63,249 nt of DNA, taken from positions 1 through 63,249 of the forward strand of contig CANSPQ010000005.1 in assembly GCA_947648915.1 (NCBI GenBank), in the 5' to 3' direction. Each line of letters begins with the position of its first letter. Position 1 is the stretch's first letter. A program made the position numbers and the translations under genes. This DNA is from an uncultured Caryophanales bacterium. GTDB taxonomy: Bacteria; Bacillota_I; Bacilli_A; RF39; UBA660. Positions 74 to 62,505 of the stretch are shown piece by piece. The notes below the pieces were generated by a model, which saw only the letters and a list, made by a program, of their open reading frames with translations, was not told the origin of the DNA and ran no database searches.

Positions 74-102
74 TTGTCAAAATAAGAAATTCGTGGTAAT
101 AT
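74..102 (+). promoter_or_regulatory. Predicted sigma-A-type promoter of the pilin-like gene
   Basis: TTGTCA (74-79) and TAATAT (97-102) are separated by exactly 17 bases. A start near position 109 would place the structured leader at 130-193 early in the transcript. Confidence 0.6.
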
Positions 103-129
103 AGAATTATTAAAATGAATCATAGAAAA

Positions 130-193
130 ATAGTTTACAGGTAGAATTATACAAGTTAACTATTTGTAAACGAGGGGGGAAATACTCTCTTTT
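130..193 (+). ncRNA. Structured leader RNA, copy A (predicted pseudoknot plus terminator-like hairpin)
   Basis: ATAGTT (130-135) can pair with AACTAT (158-163), and GTTTAC (133-138) with GTAAAC (166-171). The 1-2-1'-2' order makes an H-type pseudoknot, or two mutually exclusive helices, because the 5' arms share GTT. A G-run, a short loop and CTC followed by a T-run (172-193) form a weak terminator-like element. Related copies lie at 46512-46576 and 62274-62333. All three precede a prepilin N-terminus, and the first helix shows compensating or wobble changes between copies. I do not recognise it as a known riboswitch class. That it controls the gene is inferred. Confidence 0.6.
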
Positions 194-217
194 ATATTAT
201 AGGAAGGAATGATTGGT

Positions 218-2149
218 ATGAAAAGAAGAGGATTTACATTAGTAGAATTATTAGCAGTAATTGTAATACTAGCAGTAATTGCGATTATAGCAACACCAAT
301 GATTATGGATGTGATTGAAAAGTCTAGAATGGGAGCATTTAAAGATAGTGTATTAAGTGCATTTCATCAGGTGGATTACTATTTAGTAGAAAATGAGTTA
401 GGACAGGTCCCAGAAGAAGGGTTGGACGTTACTAAGATAGGACTTCAAAAGAGTCAATTTAAGTATGGTGAATTCTATCAAAGAGAAGAATTAGAAGTTG
501 TAAATATAAGTGATGGAAGATTTTGTGCAATCGGAGGAATGGAAAATCTGCAAGTATTTAAAGGGGAATGTGATTTCACTACACCAAGATGTGAATTAAG
601 AATAGAGGGAGAAAAGGGAGTAGGTGAATGGTATAATAAAAATCCAAAGGTAGTGATGGAAACAAGTGAAGCATTAACAGGCGGACTTACTTTTGGAATC
701 GGTAAAACAGAAAACTATAATAATGAAGTAAAGCAAGGAAATATAGGAAAAGCTGAATATCAAACAACAGAGACTACAACAACAAGAGTTTATTGTTATG
801 TCAAAAATGTGGGAGATAATAGGGGAAGTAATTATATTGATGTAAAAATTGATCAAACATTCCCAGAAGAAGCAACATTTAGTTATACAACAACAAGTAA
901 GAGTATAAGAGTGATTGCAAGTGGAAAAGACCAACAAAGTGGGATTACAAGATATCAATTTAGTAAAGATAATGGAGCAACATGGAGTGAAATACAACAA
1001 AGTAATAGCTATACATTTGATAACCTACAAACGGGCGAATACCCAATAAAAGTAAGAGTATATAATGGAACATATGTAGATAGTTTAAAAGAAAATAATT
1101 TATATAAAGAAAGTGAAACAAAAGTAGTAAAAACAGAGGATTTAATTGTTCCAACTTATGAAGTGAATCCAAAAGGATGGACTACTGGAGATGTAAAAGT
1201 AACCATAAAATATGGAGATCAAGGAATAAAACTATTGAAAACGACAGTAAATGTAACAAGTAATTTAAGTGCAACAAGATGTAGCAATGTGTATAATGGA
1301 ACATATACGTGTGATGGAGAAAGCACTAAGAATATAGAAGCAGGAGTCTGGTATTTAGTAGATTCCGATGTAGAACTTACATATGGTGAAAATGGAAGTG
1401 TAATTGCACAAGTAGTTGATGGTGTCAATTATAAAAGTGGAAGTAGTATAGTAATTGGTACAATTGATAAGGTAGATCCATCAGTTTATGTCGAAGTTAA
1501 TAAAAAAATTGCAACATTTACATTAGAAGATAATTCTGAATTAGTAGGGTATTCAGTTATGTCTCAAATGGAATTACCAGACGATTGGGTACCTATAAGT
1601 GGGAAGCAATCAATTGTGACATGGGAGGCTAGTCAAGCAGGAATATACTATGTATATGTAAAGGATATTGCTGGAAGAATATCTTCTGCAACATTTGAAA
1701 TGGCACAAACTTCTTTCTCCTATGAAGCTACAAAATCAACATATGCAGCAACGGATATTGGGCATAAGCATACGGGAAATAGAAACTCTGGGGGAGGATG
1801 TTATACAGTTCAAAAACAGTCATGTCAAACTTGTACTATTACAACAGTAGAATTGTCAACATCAATTAATTCGGATGGAACGTATAATTGGATTCGTTCT
1901 ACGAGACATTCTAGATGTGGCCAAGCGAATTCAGATTCATCCATTGGTAGAAGGAATTATTCTGGAAGCAATCAAGTTGGGTCATCATCACATTCTTATG
2001 GTTGTTCCACTTATTATGAATTAGGTTGTGGAAAATCAGAAACAACTGTTTATACATGCCCAAATGGTGGTACTTTAAATGGAACTACTTGTACATTATA
2101 TACATGTCCAAATGGCGGAACTTTAAGTGGAACAACTTGTAGGTATTAA
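218..2149 (+). CDS. Large prepilin-like (type IV pilin/pseudopilin) surface protein
   Basis: The N-terminus reads MKRRGFTLVELLAVIVIL: a short basic leader, the Gly-Phe prepilin peptidase site, Glu at mature position 5 and a hydrophobic helix running to about residue 30. This is the class III signal processed by PilD/ComC-type peptidases. About 640 residues is far longer than ordinary pilins (about 150). The middle holds Ig-like segments (for example SGITRYQFSKDNGATWSE). The end is Cys-rich, with two tandem TCPNGGTLxGTTC repeats. The start at 218 is chosen over 209 because AGGAAGG (201-207) lies 10 bases upstream of it but only 1 base from 209. No pilus assembly genes are nearby, so the protein may use a distant pilus or secretion machine. 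Exact role unknown; surface location inferred. Confidence 0.8.
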   Translation: MKRRGFTLVELLAVIVILAVIAIIATPMIMDVIEKSRMGAFKDSVLSAFHQVDYYLVENELGQVPEEGLDVTKIGLQKSQFKYGEFYQREELEVVNISDGRFCAIGGMENLQVFKGECDFTTPRCELRIEGEKGVGEWYNKNPKVVMETSEALTGGLTFGIGKTENYNNEVKQGNIGKAEYQTTETTTTRVYCYVKNVGDNRGSNYIDVKIDQTFPEEATFSYTTTSKSIRVIASGKDQQSGITRYQFSKDNGATWSEIQQSNSYTFDNLQTGEYPIKVRVYNGTYVDSLKENNLYKESETKVVKTEDLIVPTYEVNPKGWTTGDVKVTIKYGDQGIKLLKTTVNVTSNLSATRCSNVYNGTYTCDGESTKNIEAGVWYLVDSDVELTYGENGSVIAQVVDGVNYKSGSSIVIGTIDKVDPSVYVEVNKKIATFTLEDNSELVGYSVMSQMELPDDWVPISGKQSIVTWEASQAGIYYVYVKDIAGRISSATFEMAQTSFSYEATKSTYAATDIGHKHTGNRNSGGGCYTVQKQSCQTCTITTVELSTSINSDGTYNWIRSTRHSRCGQANSDSSIGRRNYSGSNQVGSSSHSYGCSTYYELGCGKSETTVYTCPNGGTLNGTTCTLYTCPNGGTLSGTTCRY

Positions 2150-24162: not shown

Positions 24163-24663
24163 ATGGAAAAATTTACAAGAACACTTCGTGGCTATGACCC
24201 TGATGAAGTCAATGCTTTCTTAGATAAAATTATTGGTCAAGTAGAAGGCATGGTATCTGAAATCAAAGAAAAAGATAAAAAAATTGCAGAACAAAATCAA
24301 AAACTTGTTCAGCAAAATAAAAGAATTTCAGAACTTCAGGGCTTAGAAGAGGAAAATAAAAACTTAAAACAAAAGGCAGAACAATTTGGACGGATGGAAG
24401 CAACAATGAGTAAGGCAATTGTAATGGCACAAAAAACATCTGAACAACTTCGTGTTTCCGCGCAAAGAGAAAGTGATGCTATGGTAGATGAGGCAAAGAA
24501 AAATGCCAACCGTATCATTAATGAAGCATTACTCAAAGCAGAAAAAACCGAAAGAGAAGCCAATACGTTAAGAAGAAATATCAATATCTTCAAGCGTAGA
24601 GTCAAAGATATTGTAGAAGCACAATTAGAAGTAGTCAATGAATTAGATGAAGTAGAATTATAA
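24163..24663 (+). CDS. divIVA: DivIVA domain protein
   Basis: A coiled-coil protein that recognises curved membrane at poles and septa. FTRTLRGYDPDEVNAFLDKII is the N-terminal DivIVA lipid-binding domain, followed by an almost continuous coiled coil to the end. AGAGGTGA at 24151-24158 sets ATG 24163. It sits between sepF and the ileS T-box leader, the same order as in many Bacillota. It may be transcribed through into the T-box, since no terminator separates them. Confidence 0.9.
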   Translation: MEKFTRTLRGYDPDEVNAFLDKIIGQVEGMVSEIKEKDKKIAEQNQKLVQQNKRISELQGLEEENKNLKQKAEQFGRMEATMSKAIVMAQKTSEQLRVSAQRESDAMVDEAKKNANRIINEALLKAEKTEREANTLRRNINIFKRRVKDIVEAQLEVVNELDEVEL

Positions 24664-24666
24664 AAC

Positions 24667-24880
24667 AGATGACAGAGACGGTAATCAATAGGAAGTTTAG
24701 AGAGTTCGTGGTTGGTGCAAACGAAACAAGACTATGATTATAGATCACTCTCGATGTGTTTTTCTGAACATTAGGAAAAACCGAATTACTTACGTTACAA
24801 GTATTGAGTGTATGATTGGTTCATAAATTAAGGTGGTACCACGGATTTAAATTCGCCCTTAAGTTATGGACTTTTTATTT
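24667..24880 (+). promoter_or_regulatory. T-box leader of ileS (specifier AUC, Ile)
   Basis: AAGGTGGTACCACGG (24830-24844) is the T-box that binds the uncharged tRNA acceptor end. The specifier loop ahead of ACTCTC offers ATC (24744-24746), an Ile codon followed by a purine. The competing terminator pairs CATAA/TTAAGG with CCTTAA/TTATG and ends in T (about 24822-24876). Uncharged tRNA-Ile should stabilise the antiterminator and switch on ileS. Confidence 0.93.
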
Positions 24881-37930: not shown

Positions 37931-38310
37931 GGGGCTGCTTTGGTTTCGACGGGAGTGTTCCGCTTTCAGTTGCAAGTGGGAGGTACACCTTATGTACAAA
38001 CAAAAATTAAACGGAAATAAATTAAAAAATGCATTTGCTACTTTATTCAATAAGAATACTGTAGCCTTCGCCTAATCGAATTTAAGGAATGCAGCTTTCT
38101 TTTATTCTTTTCCTACGGGAATTTAAGAAGGCACGATTGAGTAGGATATATTGTTATTGGGCTCAGCAATAACAATGAATGATTTGAGCTTACTAAATTA
38201 TGGGTTGTTGGTTACTAACATAGTTTAGGAAATGAAATAATCAACTAAACTTGTAGATACTGTTGGTAGGGTATTTTCGGACAGGAGTTCAATTCTCCTC
38301 AGCTCCACCA
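37931..38310 (+). ncRNA. ssrA: Transfer-messenger RNA (tmRNA)
   Basis: The 5' end GGGGCTGC pairs with the 3' GCTCC before an encoded CCA. TTTGGTTTCGACGGG is the conserved 5' tRNA-like part and GAGTTCAATTCTCCTC is the T-arm. The tag frame ends in NKNTVAFA and TAA, with the hydrophobic degradation end read by ClpXP. Several pseudoknot-like pairs lie between. Rescues stalled ribosomes with SmpB, encoded immediately upstream. The resume codon cannot be fixed by eye. Confidence 0.95.
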
Positions 38311-45611: not shown

Positions 45612-46433
45612 TTGAAAAAGTTTTATAACGGATGTTATGACATCGTATTTAAAACAGTTATCTGTGATGAGAATAACCCCCATATGTTAAAAACATTCTT
45701 AGAGCATATTTTGAAAATAGAAATAGATGAAATAGAGTTTCTACAGAATGAACTCTCTGTAAGTGATGTGGGTGAACGAAAGAAAACAGTAGACTTATTA
45801 GTAAAATCAAAGAATAGATATATTCATATTGAATTAAATCAAAGTCATAAGGATTATCTGCATATTCGGAATTTCTGTTTCTTTACCAATTTATATTCCA
45901 AAAATACAAGAAAAGGAAAAGAATTTGATTTAACAAGTGAATTTGTGCATATTGATTTATCGTATGGGAAAAAAGACGAATTAGAAAAAAGAACCTACTA
46001 TGTGATGGATAAAGATGGCTATTTGTATATAGAAAATATGAAAATCATAGAATTCAATATGGACAGGATAACTGATTTTTGGTATTCTAAAAACAAAGAG
46101 AAGATAGAAGAATATAAATATCTTATTATGTTAGGACTTGATAGAACTTCACTCAATGAAATAGCTAAGGGAGACAAATATATGGAAGAATATACAAAGA
46201 AAGTAGAAGAGTTAAATGATAGAGATGCCTTTACCAGTTGGATTACTCCAGAAGAAGATGCAGAGATGATACTCAATACGGAAAAGCACATTTCTTATGA
46301 TGAGGGAAAAAATGAAGGAAAATTAAACGAGAAAATAGAAATTACTAGAAATATGTTAAAGAAAAATATGGATATTTCAATGATATCTGAAATAACGGGT
46401 TTAACGAAAGCGCAAATAGAAACTTTAGGATAA
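45612..46433 (+). CDS. Rpn-family PD-(D/E)XK nuclease/putative transposase, copy 2
   Basis: Almost identical to the gene at 10294-11139 over about 260 residues, with the same catalytic stretch (VDLLVKSKNRYIHIELNQ), TTG start and leader including GAGGTGA and the CACTAT/ATAGTG hairpin. It lacks the GIDIGLEQ insertion and differs at the C-terminus (ITGLTKAQIETLG). The identity extends at least 40 bases upstream, showing recent duplication or conversion. It lies before the second pilin-leader locus. Confidence 0.8.
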   Translation: MKKFYNGCYDIVFKTVICDENNPHMLKTFLEHILKIEIDEIEFLQNELSVSDVGERKKTVDLLVKSKNRYIHIELNQSHKDYLHIRNFCFFTNLYSKNTRKGKEFDLTSEFVHIDLSYGKKDELEKRTYYVMDKDGYLYIENMKIIEFNMDRITDFWYSKNKEKIEEYKYLIMLGLDRTSLNEIAKGDKYMEEYTKKVEELNDRDAFTSWITPEEDAEMILNTEKHISYDEGKNEGKLNEKIEITRNMLKKNMDISMISEITGLTKAQIETLG

Positions 46434-46511: not shown

Positions 46512-46576
46512 ATAGTTTGCGAGTAGGAAATGGACGCGTTAATTATTTGTAAACATAGGGAGGTACCCCTTTTTTT
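46512..46576 (+). ncRNA. Structured leader RNA, copy B
   Basis: ATAGTT (46512-46517) pairs with AATTAT (46541-46546, one G-U), and GTTTGC (46515-46520) with GTAAAC (46549-46554, one G-U). AGGG and CCCT with seven T form a clear terminator (46557-46576). It shares ATAGTTTGCGAGTAGGAA with copy C. A broken prepilin gene follows. Confidence 0.6.
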
Positions 46577-46601: not shown

Positions 46602-46730
46602 ATGTTAAAAAGAAGAAACGAGGATTTACATTAGTAGAATTATTAGCAGTAATCACATTGGAATCAACCACAATGATAATAAACGCAATAGAAGGAAGTA
46701 AAAATGAACATTTTATTGAAATGCTTGTCT
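46602..46730 (+). pseudogene. Broken prepilin-like gene
   Basis: KKRGFTLVELLAVITLESTTMIINAIEGSK can be read with the pilin frame, but the upstream ATG (46602) is out of frame by one base in an A-run. About ten codons of the hydrophobic helix are missing (AVI continues directly to a part resembling the region after it), and a stop follows at codon 42. The end overlaps the 3' end of the convergent spoVB-like gene. Confidence 0.75.
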
Positions 46731-54935: not shown

Positions 54936-55252
54936 ATGCAAGAAAATCAAACTTTAGATTTCAAAAACAACAAATGCAAGTAAGAATTCAAAATTTGGAG
55001 GTTCTACTTCACAAGTATCATAATATAATACAAGATGCCAATGACTTTCAAACATTAATGGAAGCGCAGAATTTAATACTACAGATTAAACCAATTTTAG
55101 AATCCTTACAACAGTTGCAATATCGTTGTGCATCATATGTTGCAATTGTTGTAAGGAGAAAGACAAAAATAGTTGCATTCTCTCATATTTTATATTATAC
55201 TAATAACAGAAAAACGAAGAAGAAGAGTAGTAATTTTGAGATGTCATATTAG
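54936..55252 (+). pseudogene. Small helical protein gene with an apparent frameshift
   Basis: GGAAGGA leads to ATG 54936 (MQENQTLDF), but this frame stops after 15 codons. The next frame, from about 54957, continues as FQKQQMQVRIQNLEVLLHKY with a long helical stretch (QTLMEAQNLILQIKPILESLQQLQ). One missing or extra base near 54957 joins them into a 100-residue coiled-coil-like protein. The last third overlaps the T-box promoter (55173-55201) and may not be coding. Either a decayed gene or a sequencing slip. Confidence 0.45.
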
Positions 55253-55400
55253 AGACAAAGTGGTTGGTGAAAACTTTGGGATGAACAAAATGAACTTGCT
55301 TTGGAGTTCCTAAAAGGCGTAGACATGCGTTAAATGTAAGAGAGCATAAGTATTATGAATTAAGGTGGTACCGCGGATATTCCGTCCTTAAACATAATGC
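55173..55400 (+). promoter_or_regulatory. T-box leader (specifier CUU, Leu) with its promoter
   Basis: The promoter TTGCAT (55173-55178) and TATACT (55196-55201) has a 17-base spacer. The leader has the T-box AAGGTGGTACCGCGG (55362-55376), and a specifier CTT (55295-55297, Leu, then a purine) just before the CTTTG arm of stem I. The terminator pairs TTATG/TTAAGG with CCTTAA/ATAAT, followed by T (about 55354-55396). Controls the membrane protein gene and leuS together. Confidence 0.9.
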
Positions 55401-62273: not shown

Positions 62274-62333
62274 ATAGTTTGCGAGTAGGAAGTGTTAGCT
62301 ATTTGTAAACGAGGGAGGGGTAACCCTCTTTTT
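62274..62333 (+). ncRNA. Structured leader RNA, copy C
   Basis: ATAGTT (62274-62279) pairs with AGCTAT (62297-62302, one G-U) and GTTTGC (62277-62282) with GTAAAC (62305-62310, one G-U). Immediately after, GAGGG and CCCTC with five T form the best of the three terminators. Compared with copy A the loop between helices is shorter. It directly follows the YtxH gene and precedes a stub of a pilin gene. Confidence 0.6.
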
Positions 62334-62439
62334 AGTGGTGTAAAGAAAGGAGTAAAAGAATTGAAAGTAGGAAAATAAAGTGATAGACTAAGTATAAGAA
62401 AGAATAAAGAAATACAAAATAGAATAAGGAGTGAATAAA

Positions 62440-62475
62440 ATGAAGAAAAAAGGATTTACACTCTCAGTCAGATAG
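62440..62475 (+). pseudogene. Stub of a prepilin-like gene
   Basis: AAGGAGTG and ATG lead into MKKKGFTLSVR and a stop after 11 codons. GFTL is the prepilin processing region, but the hydrophobic helix and all else are gone, and the spoVS terminator begins where it should continue. With copy B it shows the family has lost members by deletion. Confidence 0.65.
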
Positions 62476-62505
62476 CAAAAAATCCTCCAAATAATGGGGG
62501 ATTTT
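62476..62505 (-). terminator. Terminator of spoVS
   Basis: Read on the minus strand, AAATCC-CC and GG-GGATTT pair (one mismatch) around seven bases and are followed by T. It abuts the pilin stub. Confidence 0.8.

Follow-up and report, generated by a model that had tools for sequence, protein, structure and literature searches.

G-tract terminator leaders upstream of prepilin and surface genes in an uncultured Caryophanales bacterium: candidate phase-variation sites

Results

Three copies of a leader element precede prepilin starts

Three elements lie in the window (the whole 63,249-nt stretch of DNA analysed), at 130-193 (copy A), 46512-46576 (copy B) and 62274-62333 (copy C). As the original prediction described, all three share one order of parts, in which two short complementary motif pairs alternate and are followed by a G-rich hairpin and a T run, and all three proved to be real members of a multi-copy leader. 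Their parts and neighboring genes are as follows.

74..102, + strand: promoter-like site of copy A (TTGTCA-17-TAATAT, with TG before the second hexamer); weak alone, as a consensus scan found 2 sites against 3.6 expected in shuffles
118..132, + strand: conserved single-stranded 5' flank of copy A (AUCAUARAAUA motif), from alignments
133..171, + strand: hairpin I of copy A (GUUUACAGGUAG..CUAUUUGUAAAC), from RNAfold and covariation
172..192, + strand: G-rich terminator hairpin and start of the T run of copy A (GAGGGGGGAAATACTCTCTTT), from the terminator scan
209..2149, + strand: open reading frame of a 646-aa prepilin-like gene after copy A, likely start at 218 (MKRRGFTLVELLAVIVIL), with a PF07963 N_methyl match
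46515..46554, + strand: hairpin I of copy B, from sequence and RNAfold
46555..46576, + strand: degraded terminator of copy B (ATAGGGAGGTACCCCTTTTTTT), from RNAfold and not called by the scan; GGGAGGGGATAACCCTC in the G145 orthologue
46607..46660, + strand: prepilin N-terminal remnant after copy B, from PF07963
62277..62310, + strand: hairpin I of copy C, 12 bp, from sequence and RNAfold
62311..62333, + strand: terminator of copy C (GAGGGAGGGGTAACCCTCTTTTT), from the terminator scan; GAGGGGGTAACCCTC in the G145 orthologue
62361..62389, + strand: possible second promoter 3' of the copy C terminator (TTGAAA-17-TAGACT), a consensus match
62440..62474, + strand: truncated prepilin start after copy C (MKKKGFTL, then stop), from sequence

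Each copy is followed by the expected GFTL prepilin start, which is intact after copy A, a decayed remnant recognizable by PF07963 after copy B, and cut off directly after GFTL in copy C. In the close relative G145, the orthologue of copy B still begins a prepilin (MKEKGFTLVELLAVIVIL) and that of copy C has the intact start MKRKGFTLVEL. The predicted hairpin plus T-run terminator stood for copies A and C, where terminator-like sites were called against 0.0-0.1 in shuffles, and failed for copy B, where the scan made no call and the site looks degraded. Three calls were made in the copy C stretch, one being the element itself and two belonging to a separate hairpin at 62479-62505.

A PD-(D/E)XK family transposase gene (PF12784) occupies 45612-46433, just upstream of copy B, and the G145 match to this region breaks off around that gene. 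Elsewhere in the window, an ordinary tmRNA (37931-38310) and two T-box leaders (24660-24863 and 55208-55392) were recognized. The first ~50 bases (1-54) recur at the start of another contig of the source genome (C31, L037), before a prepilin that has no element.

The element is repeated within the genus and matches no Rfam family

Across the whole source genome (G000), ATAGTTTRC-N-WATTTGTAAAC is found 11 times, and the same pattern read backwards 0 times. A family-wide search with the exact pattern returned the source genome and one coding match only, so that a covariance model was needed to look further. Built on 12 copies and run on related genomes, as had been proposed, this model found 20 copies in the source genome and 16-35 copies per genome in five genomes of the source genus, together with weaker matches of convincing architecture in the genera G001 and G063. 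A match in G006 (L106) was set aside as chance since no terminator is present there, and a viral origin was likewise rejected, as both viral pattern matches are chance occurrences inside coding sequence. No Rfam family matched the element, in line with the expectation that it belongs to no known class.

Hairpin I is a nested helix that covaries

The best RNAfold structure of the element is one nested hairpin of ~8-12 bp (hairpin I, GUUURCGAGUAG..CUAUUUGUAAAC), directly abutted on its 3' side by a G-rich intrinsic terminator hairpin. All copies tried gave one nested hairpin, in which CUAU mostly pairs with an inner GUAG, under a method that cannot predict pseudoknots. The sequence of the apical loop is not fixed, and its length runs from ~3 nt (in G001) up to ~25 nt. 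The 5' flank AUCAUARAAUA(G) is conserved and single-stranded in the alignments, and is found in G001 and G063 as AUAAUAAAAUG.

The second of the two helices originally proposed, GTTTRC:GYAAAC (GTTTRC:GTAAAC in the window copies), was borne out as a genuine helix with compensatory changes. An alignment of 68 copies, drawn from the genus together with G001 and G063, has 96.6% of its cells paired; it was fitted to the structure, and its counts are thus biased in the structure's favor. Two-sided changes affect 6 pairs and 11 cells of this alignment, above both shuffled and slid controls; the shuffled mean is 2.8, and none of 500 shuffles reaches 11. When the pairs were instead read inward from the hairpin ends, without fitting to the structure, outer pair 5 appeared as G-U, G-C or A-U, pair 6 as C-G or U-G, and pair 7 as G-U or A-U, while pair 3 becomes G-C in G001. 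A possible closing helix, formed by the 5' flank and the sequence beyond the U run, is not general (mean z -0.73, with 11 of 69 copies below 0.05), and is strong in a few copies.

The pseudoknot and riboswitch readings are not supported

It had been proposed that the first helix, AUAG:CUAU, interleaves with the second to give an H-type pseudoknot or alternates with it as a switch. The two helices have GTT in common, so full formation of both is impossible. Of 61 distinct copies, a set that under-represents the congener G138, 42 retain all four core pairs of AUAG:CUAU, and the helix is broken in most G138 copies (CUUU, CUAA, CCAU) and absent or broken in the neighboring genus G001. Within the source species the helix is kept. 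Given the shared GTT, the nested fold and these broken copies, the pseudoknot is not supported. Mutually exclusive helices were rejected as a general feature, since AUAG:CUAU is not retained beyond the source species group; a competing helix may form in the source species.

A riboswitch of the preQ1 or c-di-GMP type fared no better. A loop as short as ~3 nt in G001 argues against an aptamer, no conserved aptamer core can be seen in a loop so variable in length and sequence, and the genes downstream are diverse.

Promoters and downstream genes

A -10-like box lies at a fixed upstream distance from 71 of 93 copies, as compared to 23 of 88 control windows. The usual layout is promoter, hairpin I, terminator and ribosome-binding site, with 15-110 nt usually separating the T run from the start codon. 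Where the start codon is ~100 nt away, as in copy C, a second promoter may lie 3' of the terminator; transcripts from it would bypass the terminator, and attenuation there would be only partial.

Within the genus, the downstream genes are mostly prepilins (GFTL..LLAVIVIL) or members of a pilin-like GFATSAILYTLL class, and others encode Fic proteins, a Spo0A_C-like protein, a sugar transferase and MRERIK-type membrane-anchored proteins. The anticipated steady link to prepilin genes thus describes most copies and is breached by these other classes. As only some of the 18 prepilin loci in the source genome have the element, it marks an expanded subfamily rather than pili in general.

The terminator arm is a G tract that differs between close relatives

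In most prepilin leaders the 5' arm of the terminator is a pure G8-G12 tract, mostly G9-G10 in copies before prepilins, and runs of ~10 Gs are retained although the genome is AT-rich. The original prediction passed over this homopolymer. The tract is short or interrupted in all three window copies and in some others. Between orthologous leaders of G000 and G145, whose flanks are 92-97% identical, the tract differs in length or purity at several loci, examples being G10/G9, G11/G10, G3AG6/G12 and GGAG7/G11. Repeat-tract length therefore differs between close relatives, as at a contingency locus, with the proviso that MAG assemblies can misstate the length of a homopolymer; one genome per species was compared, and slippage is read from differences between species. 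The predicted terminator energy shifts gradually, by ~0.5 kcal/mol per G, with no switch point, and a switch based on terminator stability was rejected on this ground.

In three contigs (C30 and C48 of G000 and C36 of G138; L111, L112 and L098) the end falls in or just beside a G tract, where an assembly would break if it met repeats or a mixture of tract lengths.

Poly-G tracts recur in other layouts across the family

Tracts of G7 or longer abut TATAAT in 19 of 145 family genomes, the backwards control matching almost nowhere, and TTGACA lies 18-20 nt upstream of several such sites. These sites look like phase-variable promoters, present on a large scale. Some gene classes have homologues with the poly-G tract in the leader in one genus and in the promoter in another: behind poly-G promoters in other genera lie the GF(A/V)xSA pilin-like class, MRERIK/MKKWKF-type proteins and an ABC ATPase. 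For the ATPase, whose relatives are 64.5% identical over 299 aa, the link is looser, as the leader is 235 nt away. In a third layout, a prepilin frame in G053 (L169, ~1263, minus strand) contains G10 just after its ATG; as the frame reads, G9 or G12 would join the ATG to GFTLIELL and G10 stops early. The poly-G tract is the common factor across leader, promoter and coding layouts, which points to slippage-based phase variation.

Individual genomes with G7-G10 before TATAAT, often with a surface-type gene behind, include G133, G132, G060, G119, G024, G027 and G090, among others (L164, L173, L277-L285). Two further poly-G tracts (L177 and L168) lie inside apparent acetyltransferase-like frames, where frame-shift phase variation is possible.

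Discussion

On balance, the element is probably an attenuator-type leader that acts as a contingency (phase-variation) site of pilin and surface genes. More tentatively, and at somewhat less than even likelihood, the hypermutable homopolymer would be the 5' arm of the terminator itself, with replication slippage directly resetting how often transcription reads through into many pilin and surface genes at once. A sigma-70-type promoter would produce a short AU-rich leader that folds into hairpin I, followed immediately by the intrinsic terminator. With a 5' arm of ~8-12 Gs, many transcripts would stop before the gene, and read-through would mean expression. Slipped-strand changes in the G tract would modify the terminator, or move it relative to hairpin I, which may itself help the terminator to fold cleanly, so that tract length would set expression stochastically, cell by cell. 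Because the predicted energy changes only gradually with the number of Gs, such an effect would need hairpin spacing, folding kinetics or polymerase slippage. From the computed copies, helix, terminator signature, -10 enrichment, gene classes and orthologue tract differences we infer termination in vivo, any switching that depends on G number, and what the element does biologically. Phase variation is the best-supported reading and is unproven, and the contingency-attenuator model leaves the conserved 5' flank AUCAUARAAUAG unaccounted for.

That flank is central to an unlikely alternative, in which an antiterminator protein or small molecule reads AUCAUARAAUAG together with hairpin I, the loci form a regulon and the G tract is merely a terminator arm. 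Conservation of the flank into G001 and G063 despite the changed hairpin sequence is consistent with such a responsive attenuator, as is the regulon-like presence of the same element at many unlinked loci. However, the loop of 3-25 nt has no conserved sequence or aptamer core, no alternative pairing that sequesters the G arm was found, and both the purity of the G8-G12 tracts and the promoter poly-G of other genera are left unexplained.

Quite improbably, the leader and the conserved prepilin start might serve as a cassette boundary, providing homology for swapping leaders or pilin bodies, with the G run perhaps a break or hot spot. The same coiled-coil gene, 94% identical between G000 (L100) and G145 (L260), has different leader types in the two genomes, as if leaders had been exchanged, and in copies B and C the prepilins were lost or cut at the conserved N-terminus that their orthologues keep. 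While the exchanged leader and truncated prepilins suggest recombination at these loci, they are also compatible with the attenuator model, and the covariation reflects selection on RNA pairing, which is unexpected for plain DNA homology. Unrelated genes, moreover, also have the leader.

It is very doubtful that the element is a leader-peptide attenuator like that of Streptococcus gallolyticus. On such a reading, a ribosome translating a small frame across the G tract would disrupt the terminator in some frames only, and the number of Gs would switch expression by frame. In 86 of 94 copies an in-frame start codon opens a frame that enters the G tract, G138 copies have a common GUAUGC with its ATG in frame, and leaders in G053 have an ATG before the poly-G. 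Against this, an SD-like sequence precedes the start in only 10 of 94 copies, other copies have TAG, AAC or TTG at the position of the G138 ATG, and insertions and deletions in the loop are not multiples of three. Least probable of all is a plain terminator that regulates nothing and multiplied as the prepilin family duplicated: most copies do precede one paralogous family and copy C lies directly after its upstream gene, but unrelated genes also have the element, its layout is kept in other genera despite changed hairpin sequence, and ~10-G runs persist in an AT-rich genome.

If the contingency-site reading is true, uncultured gut Bacilli possess a contingency system of up to ~35 parallel loci per genome, and mixed G-tract lengths with patchy pilin expression are predicted within the populations of one host. 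It takes the place of a riboswitch reading that was plausible but unsupported. The element does resemble preQ1-I-type pseudoknot riboswitches in being a short structured 5' leader followed by an intrinsic terminator, but it differs in having no supported pseudoknot, conserved aptamer core or Rfam match.

Phase variation by poly-G/C tracts in promoter spacers has been reviewed for Campylobacter and Neisseria. Those tracts, like the promoter tracts of other genera in this family, are poly-G/C runs of ~7-12 that control surface genes; they sit between the -35 and -10 boxes, whereas the tract described here lies after the transcription start, in the terminator arm. A literature search for repeats located within terminators gave only S. 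gallolyticus and unrelated work, and a simple-sequence repeat placed in the terminator arm was not found described in the literature searched.

In function, the S. gallolyticus pil1 leader appears to be the closest known system. The pil1/pil3 system demonstrates that a leader combining a repeat and a terminator can phase-vary pili, with GCAGA repeats lengthening or shortening a translated leader peptide that lies ahead of the terminator (PMC3894217). As in that system, the 5' leaders of pilus genes contain a simple-sequence repeat and, before the gene, an intrinsic terminator, here a predicted one. No translated leader frame crossing the repeat was recognized, given the scarcity of SD-like sequences and an unconserved start codon, and no conserved leader peptide was found; the repeat here, instead, is the run of Gs making up the terminator arm. 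The pili differ as well, being of the sortase type in S. gallolyticus and of the prepilin-peptidase type here.
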